This document shows, piece after piece, positions 4,887-14,485 of a stretch of DNA of 35,768 bases. The translations under genes were made by a program, and so were the position numbers. Below the pieces are notes generated by a model. The model ran no database searches. It saw only the letters and a program-made list of their open reading frames with translations, and had not been told where the DNA came from. The stretch comes from Burkholderiales bacterium (lineage in GTDB: Bacteria; Patescibacteriota; Minisyncoccia; Phycocordibacterales; UBA9973), in assembly GCA_023701005.1 (NCBI GenBank), contig JAMPXW010000001.1:1-35768 (forward strand), written 5' to 3'. Within the stretch, counting starts at the first letter, position 1. The number at the start of each line of letters is the position of its first letter.

Positions 4887-4940
4887 AATCCACTAAGTAT
4901 ATGCTCCTCAAAACATTACACAACACAAACTCCCCAAAAC

Positions 4941-4989
4941 TGTGCATAACTAGACAAGGGCGGTCCTTTTCAAAAGGACCGCCCTTGTC
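4941..4989. repeat. REP-like palindrome (4953-4989) preceded by DnaA-box-like TGTGCATAAC; left flank of the RAYT gene
   Basis: GACAAGGGCGGTCCTTTT-C-AAAAGGACCGCCCTTGTC; 18-bp perfect stem, near-identical to the copy at 5774-5810; no T-tract on either side. Confidence 0.9.
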
Positions 4990-5002
4990 GCTCTTATCAT
5001 TT

Positions 5003-5692
5003 TTATTCCTCCAAAACCTTAGGAAAAGAAAGCCATTCATCTATAAATAAATCAAAATCTTTTTCCTCTGAAAAATATTCTGGAAAAACTTCTTTGTTTA
5101 TAATTTTTGATTGTAAGCGTTCTATATTTTTATAATCTTGATAACTAGAAAAAGAATATTCTTCAAGGTGTTTTTGGGCATATTTTCTATCAGAAATTCC
5201 ATTCTCTTTCCATTTTGAATCAATCAGTTTTATAGGATTTAGGTGTATATAAGCAAAAAGATATTTCAAATATTCATCATTATCTATATGTTTTGCTTTA
5301 AATCTACTTTCAAAAAGAGCCCCGCTACGATTATTTTTTTTATTAAAATACATTGAATAACCAGTCAAAAGTTTCCCCAAAAATTTACTTATTCCACCTT
5401 CTGTTTTTTCTTTTATTACAATATGAAAATGGTTTGGCATTAAAGAATAAATACCTATATCAACCAATGAACTTTCTTTTTTTATCTTATAAAGTCCAGA
5501 CAAAAGACCTCCCCCTTGTAAATGCTTACCGATATTTATAGAATCTTCATTATTACATATATACAAAAGTACCTTAAAGCGTTTATAGTCTTTCGACTCT
5601 AAAAAAATTTTACGCTTTTCTGTGCCGCGACTATAAATATGATAATATTCACCAATTGAAAAATCTATTTTTCTTTGCATGAAAAAATTCAC
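5003..5692 (-). CDS. REP-associated tyrosine transposase (RAYT / TnpA_REP, Y1 HUH family)
   Basis: EYYHIYSRGTEKRKIF..., HUH motif in MPNHFHIVIKE, downstream Tyr in LLTGYSMYFNKKNNRSGALFESRFKAKHI, YLFAYIHLNPIK: all typical of the family. Confidence 0.93.
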   Translation of the reverse strand: MNFFMQRKIDFSIGEYYHIYSRGTEKRKIFLESKDYKRFKVLLYICNNEDSINIGKHLQGGGLLSGLYKIKKESSLVDIGIYSLMPNHFHIVIKEKTEGGISKFLGKLLTGYSMYFNKKNNRSGALFESRFKAKHIDNDEYLKYLFAYIHLNPIKLIDSKWKENGISDRKYAQKHLEEYSFSSYQDYKNIERLQSKIINKEVFPEYFSEEKDFDLFIDEWLSFPKVLEE

Positions 5693-5761
5693 AAAATATT
5701 CATATTAAAAAGTTCAAGACAACCTAATTGTATACTCTTAAAAGATTAATTATCCAAAAAC

Positions 5762-5810
5762 TGTGGATAACTAGACAAGGGCGGTCCTTTATAAAAGGAC
5801 CGCCCTTGTC
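5762..5810. repeat. REP-like palindrome (5774-5810) preceded by exact DnaA-box sequence TGTGGATAA; right flank of the RAYT gene
   Basis: GACAAGGGCGGTCCTTTATAAAAGGACCGCCCTTGTC, 35/37 identical to the copy at 4953-4989, same orientation; shared upstream AAAACTGTG(C/G)ATAACTA. Confidence 0.9.
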
Positions 5811-5829
5811 AACTTTTTATATGTTTTAA

Positions 5830-13146: not shown

Positions 13147-13258
13147 GAAATTTAAGAATCAATATTTTTGCCGGTACGAACTTTTTGAAGCTTAAAAAGT
13201 TCTGAAGTTTTCGCTCCGTCGAGCTCAAAACCCCTTAAAAACATTATTCTTAAATTTC
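13147..13258. repeat. Structured repeat copy A (112 bp; outer stem plus two inner hairpins), 3' side of the wHTH gene
   Basis: Perfect 13-bp terminal inverted repeat GAAATTTAAGAAT/ATTCTTAAATTTC; inner hairpin GAACTTTTT-GAAGCTT-AAAAAGTTC; second hairpin GTTTTcGCTC-CGTC-GAGCtcAAAAC; homologous to 14149-14263. Confidence 0.88.
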
Positions 13259-13262
13259 ACCT

Positions 13263-14102
13263 CTAATTAAGAAAATATTGAGACCAGCGCTTCTCTCCTG
13301 TTTTCTTAAGGACATTGTCCTTTACCATAGAAACTAATTCTCTTTGTAGTGTCTTTTCTCCCCATTCTTCGCCAAGGCTACGAATAGCAAGCATGATGTC
13401 CTTTATACTAATTCCGTTGGGATAATTCTTTATAACTGAAATGATCTCTCCTCGTCTTTTATTCTTTAAAACTTCAAAATTTTCTTTATGCCCAACCTCG
13501 CTCAAAGCTTGCAGTAAAGTGCTTCCCTTTTGGACTCCGATTCTAGTACTTTGTCCTTTACGAAAAGGTGAAAATTTTTTCCTATCGGACACGGATGGTT
13601 GCTCAGAAAACATAGCAGAAATTTTAGACTCACGGACGTGCTCTATCTCCTCATTCATAGGGGAAGATTTTGATATAAATTCTCCCAACCAACCATTATC
13701 CTTTTTTGTGAATTCATGTATAGATTCTTTCAATTCCAAAAACTCTTTTTTCAATATTCTGTAATTCATCTCAGAGATCATTCTGATATCAAAAGCAATG
13801 TTCATAAAGGACAAGACTTCGGCTATTTTCTCATCTAGCTTACCCAAAGTTATCCTAGAAGAAGAATTGATGTCCGATAGAATCTCCACTCCTAATGTCC
13901 TTAATTTTAAGCGAATTGGCTCATTTGTTTCCATCGTGTCCGTTACCATGTAGAGGGCGGTAATGAGTTTGTTTGTCTTGGTATATGAACCAGAAAAATC
14001 TCTCAATGGAGAGACAGAGGGAGTCATAGACATAGGCACAGAAGAGGTGTCTTTTATAGAATCTTGGGAGATGTCTTTAAAGTTTTTATTCTCTCCTAAC
14101 AT
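13263..14102 (-). CDS. DNA-binding-type protein with probable C-terminal winged-helix domain; real start probably at 14102 (MLGENKN) rather than ORF start 14165
   Basis: Helical N-terminal TNKLITALYMVTDTMETNEPIRLKLRTLGVEILSDI; C-terminal wHTH-like RRGEIISVIKNYPNGISIKDIMLAIRSLGEEWGEKTLQRELVSMVKDNVLKKTGEKRWSQYFLN; promoter overlaps longer ORF start. Confidence 0.7.
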   Translation of the reverse strand: MLGENKNFKDISQDSIKDTSSVPMSMTPSVSPLRDFSGSYTKTNKLITALYMVTDTMETNEPIRLKLRTLGVEILSDINSSSRITLGKLDEKIAEVLSFMNIAFDIRMISEMNYRILKKEFLELKESIHEFTKKDNGWLGEFISKSSPMNEEIEHVRESKISAMFSEQPSVSDRKKFSPFRKGQSTRIGVQKGSTLLQALSEVGHKENFEVLKNKRRGEIISVIKNYPNGISIKDIMLAIRSLGEEWGEKTLQRELVSMVKDNVLKKTGEKRWSQYFLN

Positions 14103-14133
14103 GCTGTCCATTATATATAGGACAGCAAAAAAT
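14103..14133 (-). promoter_or_regulatory. Promoter (TTGCAT-16-TATAAT) with overlapping operator-like inverted repeat GCTGTCC-N10-GGACAGC (14103-14126)
   Basis: Minus strand TTGCATTTTTTGCTGTCCTATATATAATGGACAGCATG; -10 lies inside the inverted repeat; ATG begins immediately after. Confidence 0.65.
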
Positions 14134-14148
14134 GCAAGCCTTTTTGAT

Positions 14149-14263
14149 AAAAAATCAAGAATCAATATTTTTGTCGGTACGGATTTTTTGAAGCTTAAAA
14201 AAGTCCTGAAGTTGGCTCGTCGACACTCGCCAAACCCCTTAAAAACATTATTCTTAATTTTTT
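14149..14263. repeat. Structured repeat copy B (115 bp), 5' side of the wHTH gene
   Basis: Terminal inverted repeat AAAAAATCAAGAAT/ATTCTTAATTTTTT (13/14); shares AAGAATCAATATTTTTGyCGGTACGrAyTTTTTGAAGCTTAAAAA and AAACCCCTTAAAAACATTATTCTTAA with copy A. Confidence 0.88.
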
Positions 14264-14284
14264 ATTTTTAAAAAAATCTTCGCA

Positions 14285-14415
14285 GGCGTACTTTTTAAAA
14301 AGCATTGCGCAGGAGTTTAGAAAATAAATGAGGTAACCCGAATATTATTTTCTTGAACGACGAGCATAGCAATCTGTCAGCTGGCGGATATGCGCGGTTT
14401 TTAAAAAGTTATGCC
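14285..14415. repeat. Second-type imperfect inverted-repeat element upstream of ftsK
   Basis: GGCGTACTTTTTAAAAAGCATTGCGCA versus ATGCGCGGTTTTTAAAAAGTTATGCC (inverted), with inner hairpin AGAAAATAAAT...ATATTATTTTCT. Confidence 0.65.
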
Positions 14416-14485
14416 AAGAAAGATTTTTTATATTTCTTTTATTTTTGAAATGTTAGATATGCAAAAATGTGGTAAAATATACCAT

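Follow-up and report, generated by a model that had tools for sequence, protein, structure and literature searches.

Repeats A and B of the window (the whole 35,768-nucleotide stretch of DNA analyzed here) are best explained, and we hold this with good confidence, as copies of a Parcubacteria MITE mobilized by IS982, with decayed ends, a constrained fold, and a putative role at transcript ends. According to this explanation, A and B would be two old, separate insertions; an IS982-family transposase would act in trans on the terminal inverted repeats of the element; and the outermost repeat would decay after insertion. An inner 25-bp stem and a 62-nt three-way-junction core would be kept, the stem with compensatory changes. 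The fold of one strand would matter, as tolerated G.T mismatches and a tandem G.A suggest, and old copies would be retained as predicted bidirectional terminators at transcript ends. The features concerned are as follows.

13147..13258, minus strand: element copy A, whole (both arms and core); the strand given is the best-folding one (the GGGG...GTACC strand)
13173..13234, minus strand: core of A, 62 nt
13263..14102, minus strand: conserved host protein of 279 aa, encoded in single copy and separate from the element
14149..14263, minus strand: element copy B, whole
14176..14238, minus strand: core of B, 63 nt, with hairpins at 14181-14206 and 14211-14235
14265..14430, no strand assigned: representative of a second family of structured elements, adjacent to B, with an inverted repeat at 14271-14301/14399-14429

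The sequence-only reading had described A and B as direct repeats in which an outer stem encloses two inner hairpins, and this description holds: the copies are ~84% identical, and their folds surpass those of dinucleotide shuffles, far so for A on both strands (z about −5) and more weakly for B (z of −1.6 to −3.3). The minus strand gives the best fold in both. Along this GGGG strand, the order is arm, GGGG, hairpin with the tandem G.A, UUCA, AAGCUU-loop hairpin, GUACC, arm; in A, the tandem G.A hairpin lies at 13207-13231 and the AAGCTT-loop hairpin at 13178-13202, and GGGG and GTACC are the conserved junction strands. Seven full copies and one weak copy were found in the same genome, A and B being two of the seven. 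The compensatory differences that had been noted between A and B recur across these seven copies, in which 96.7% of three-way-junction cells pair and 19 of 39 pairs are changed on both sides. Not one of these covariation values was attained in 500 shuffles, and paired cells fall to 61 to 66% when the partner is slid by one column. The single-stranded segments previously called nearly invariant remain so among 55 diverse copies, over which the entire 62-nt core varies little and the arms differ from copy to copy; the arms of a given copy pair far better with each other than with arms taken from different copies.

A covariance-model search, which had been proposed for finding further copies in relatives, recovered many of them. 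At E ≤ 0.01, 54 of the 100 family genomes gave matches (0 to 37 copies per genome), as did 20 of 388 class genomes at E ≤ 1e-5. Since the model derives from the own-genome copies, matches in that genome are given by construction (A, one of the seven copies used to build model R1, scores 128.5 bits with it), and those elsewhere are not. A Nomurabacteria genome (G068) holds ~40 copies, including a near-identical, recently spread subset that we refer to as the burst, and exact core matches occur in records named Nomura-, Vogel-, Yonath-, and Yanofskybacteria. As expected of a MITE, the element is short, multicopy, and dispersed and has no coding capacity. Carriage by phages or plasmids was rejected, there being no match to the element in IMG/VR or in phage or plasmid collections, and a known RNA family was rejected likewise, as no Rfam family matched at or above its gathering score. 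At one G068 locus (L202:19412-19528), the element sits near the gene start inside a 323-aa frame that is open throughout; the start of the empty orthologue (L273) resembles RsmA/KsgA. Repeats nested within repeats were also seen: short palindromes of the GCCTGCCGGCAGGC type are inserted into the AAGCTT loop of the element in L069 and L182:631-766.

The mobility of the element is most legible in the burst. These copies are ~140 bp long and have terminal inverted repeats, with termini TCG-TGAATTACGAAACTC...GAGTTTCGTAATTCA-AAG, and in 11 of 15 of them perfect 7- to 8-bp direct repeats (e.g., TTCCATA, TAAGTAA, and TCATGAT) lie outside the TCG/AAG; flanks match at a mean of 4.8 of 7 positions at the right offset, versus 2.7 between different copies. 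IS982 ends (AC) suggest that the adjoining A/T is part of the element, in which case the duplication would read 5 bp; some members of IS982 are documented with 7-bp duplications (PMC7335449). When the family was searched with the left end, the same end was found to open long multicopy elements, broken at contig ends, in G099, G070, and G131, and from their first codons a complete element, L351, was traced in a related genome. L351 carries an intact transposase gene (267 aa; NF033520 IS982, E = 1.7e-40, 139 bits against a cutoff of 130; Pfam DDE_Tnp_1_3) flanked by ACTTTGAATTACGAAACCCC...GAGTTTCGTAATTCAAAG, and its termini match those of the burst element, making it an autonomous element with matching ends. 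The ends of L351 (ACTTTGAATTACG) and the short direct repeats agree with the IS982 end pattern AC(N)6T; the family pattern has further TT positions, at which L351 has AA (PMC7335449). Judging from the ends and duplications of the burst, the element is apparently a MITE whose movement depends in trans on an IS982 transposase.

Empty orthologous sites of the element exist in relatives. Since no recognizable target duplication is present at A, B, or the other old copies, the IS982 origin of A and B rests on arm resemblance, from which we infer the same origin for the old copies in general. A search for a multicopy transposase inside G068 found none; the genome holds only a decayed fragment, whose IS982-type end is assigned by resemblance to the G099 copy. 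No IS982 transposase is recognizable today in the genome of A and B, nor in most of the element-rich genomes, and A and B are therefore probably immobile now. Mobilization by a RAYT was rejected, as both Y1 transposase genes of the genome have flanking hairpins of their own and not this repeat. RAYT/REP systems are marked by palindromes that carry a tetranucleotide tag and border a Y1 transposase gene, and they make no target duplication, unlike the burst. The first of these genes, in the window at 5003-5692, resembles REP-associated tyrosine transposases (Y1_Tnp, E = 7e-8; NF047646 below cutoff) and is flanked by nearly identical hairpins (4930-4991 and 5753-5811; ACTAGACAAGGGCGGTCC...GGACCGCCCTTGTC), with which it is a REP/RAYT-like unit of its own, differing from the A/B repeat. 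The second, L013 (G000:C1:67673), is bordered by CCCGAGGATAACCCTCGGGAG hairpins that differ from those of the first.

Aligned over 144 older copies, the arms yield an A-rich, CTTTT-ending consensus that resembles the terminal repeat, and for this reason they look like diversified terminal repeats. Because the arms are copy specific, insertion of the core into preexisting terminator palindromes was considered as well; it was rejected for the burst, in which identical arms lie inside the target duplications, and is unlikely for old copies, the arms of which share the terminal-repeat-like consensus. Some copies are colocated in species whose flanking genes are only 70 to 80% identical. Of 42 such pairs, 12 have arms with at least 80% similarity, against 65% in random pairs (standard deviation, 10), which we read as shared ancestry; other pairs suggest that one slot was used again. 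The core is inverted in 15 of the 42 pairs. The core detector picks intact cores, so that decayed orthologues are undercounted in these figures. In the distant genome G431, for which a search found no relatives for comparison, nine copies were read, eight of which have perfect 19- to 33-bp palindromes as arms; the arms are nearly all unrelated in sequence, with cores 83 to 97% identical (L371 to L375, L394, L395, L398, and L402). In one case, an arm overlaps the upstream reading frame at its end. These arms are poorly explained by diversification of terminal repeats, and either very strong arm correction or the making of arms from the landing site would account for them.

The position of older copies points to the ends of transcripts. 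These copies start directly downstream of stop codons: where a stop neighbors the copy, it lies 10 to 39 nt from the core in 93 of 113 cases, with a peak at 20 to 29 nt and an arm length of ~25 nt, and at convergent sites the median core-to-stop distances on the two sides are 26 and 25.5 nt. Among 131 older nonintragenic copies, 31 lie between convergent genes and 18 between divergent genes. Where the neighbors are codirectional, the GGGG strand of older copies is antisense to the genes in 60 cases and sense in 22 (P = 3e-5), a bias absent from burst copies (7 to 6); gene calls throughout were simple longest-ORF calls. In G063, the GGGG strand is opposite to the leading strand in 18 of 26 copies, an orientation that has the same direction as the gene-direction bias and is inseparable from it. 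At one empty orthologous site (L190), the same convergent genes are separated by a plain terminator hairpin. An A-tract/T-tract lies 22 to 28 nt from the core, at the stem base; like the position, it fits an intrinsic terminator, in which a U-tract follows a stem at a gene end. Since settled copies directly adjoin stop codons, often lie between convergent genes that leave no room for another terminator, and carry these tracts, we infer that they persist as putative transcript-end structures, possibly as bidirectional terminators.

We asked which strand is constrained. On the GGGG strand, the non-Watson-Crick cells of the outer arms comprise 51 G.T and 16 A.C (53 and 16 before duplicate removal), spread over positions, and the excess is still 25 to 5 where neighbors are transcribed from the other strand. 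Of 55 copies, 50 retain the tandem G.A mismatches, in either of two registers. Together, the G.T bias and the tandem G.A suggest a constraint on the fold of the GGGG strand, as RNA or single-stranded DNA, and argue for such a constraint against pure arm-to-arm correction, which may nonetheless act as well. The earlier proposal of selection on a folded single strand thus gains support from these mismatches and from the covariation.

The closest contender, which we regard as possible without favoring it, is that template-switch (quasipalindrome) correction during replication keeps the arms complementary, in which case compensatory changes would be a by-product and only the core would be functional. 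The quality of pairing by gene context does not separate selection from correction: near-perfect arms occur in every context, with divergent sites pairing about as well as others (P = 0.24). The perfect arms of G431 are what such correction would produce, and inversion of the core between the arms of the same slot in some relatives suggests palindrome recombination. However, the tolerated mismatches are strongly strand biased, and blind correction would remove the tandem G.A that survives in nearly all copies. Furthermore, arm conservation equals or exceeds that of the flanking genes in orthologous pairs (picked by arm similarity).

A more doubtful proposal would have the element carry a functional strand-specific three-way-junction module (RNA or single-stranded DNA) serving host or element, with IS982-type ends as its vehicle through the class of ultrasmall bacteria; inverted copying would derive new arms from the landing site or match them to it. 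The inverted-copy origin of arms is suggested by the perfect, mostly unrelated arms of G431. We consider it unlikely, in turn, that the repeats represent a regulatory RNA gene in its own right or a riboswitch-like motif, spread by duplication and with IS982 ends being incidental. The core sequence and junction are indeed nearly invariant over several families, the GGGG strand has an RNA-like signature, and Rfam holds no matching family. Against this, burst copies combine perfect target duplications with IS982 termini, neither the neighboring gene nor a sense orientation is consistent, and codirectional old copies are mostly antisense.

The gene between A and B is a bystander with no special tie to the element. 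The sequence-only reading had seen in the repeat-gene-repeat arrangement a cassette or a protein/repeat pair resembling RAYT/REP, and the common orientation of A and B around a single enclosed gene is in keeping with such a unit, yet the co-occurrence data make it highly improbable. The encoded protein, whose C-terminal winged-helix match is weak (HTH_12, E = 0.016, below cutoff), belongs to a single-copy family present in 81 of 100 family genomes irrespective of the repeat, six of which lack the repeat (G016, G044, G076, G082, G084, and G086). The other element copies of the genome stand alone beside unrelated genes. In G095, the orthologue of B occupies the identical position, between ftsK and the counterpart of the 13263-14102 gene and upstream of the latter, but the slot of A is filled by a copy of the second element family; in G055, the slot of A holds yet another hairpin. 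RAYT-type mobility is ruled out for the burst by its target duplications, and the IS982-type ends of the burst copies do not support it either. A composite transposon of two copies was rejected too, as nearby pairs of copies occur in no fixed arrangement. The second element family has a GCATTGCGCAGG...GAGCATAGC core and variable arms, and its copy L334 in G063 has the same IS982-type termini. Integron-like attachment sites, which would likewise present a folded single strand and direct repeats flanking one gene, are highly improbable: attC sites have conserved boxes at their ends and a variable middle, whereas this element is the reverse, with copies dispersed singly.

The element is abundant (up to ~40 copies, in one genome of 0.7 Mb), old, and putatively located at transcript ends. 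It offers a test case for whether compensatory changes in palindromic repeats reflect selection for the folded structure or the correction of one arm by its partner during replication, and the strand bias of tolerated mismatches is one way to tell the two apart. With a curated family model, copies would no longer be mistaken for genes or lone RNAs. Descriptions of mobile elements from uncultured Parcubacteria seem to be few, and our literature searches found no MITE described in this group.

Among known systems, MITECca01 of Cardinium is an IS982-derived MITE of ~240 bp known from one strain (PMC9769881). Like it, the Parcubacteria element is short, nonautonomous, multicopy, and mostly intergenic, has IS982-family terminal repeats, and resides in reduced genomes. 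Unlike it, the Parcubacteria element is 100 to 140 bp long and class-wide and combines a conserved three-way-junction core with covarying, copy-specific arms. BOX, RUP, and SPRITE of pneumococcus are prokaryotic MITEs with RNA folds, and terminator-like action has been proposed for SPRITE (reviewed in PMC10969869). The likeness lies in small intergenic mobile repeats with transcripts that fold (predicted folds, in the Parcubacteria case), but the sequences and the transposase group are different, and the Parcubacteria element is set apart by its retention beside stop codons even where flanking genes are only 70 to 80% identical and by an apparently strand-specific constraint on its core. With REP/BIME and their RAYTs it shares the character of dispersed palindromic intergenic repeats, yet it has target duplications and a DDE-type IS982 partner rather than an HUH transposase. 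A core far better kept than the arms, together with strand-biased complementary arms, is unusual for a MITE.
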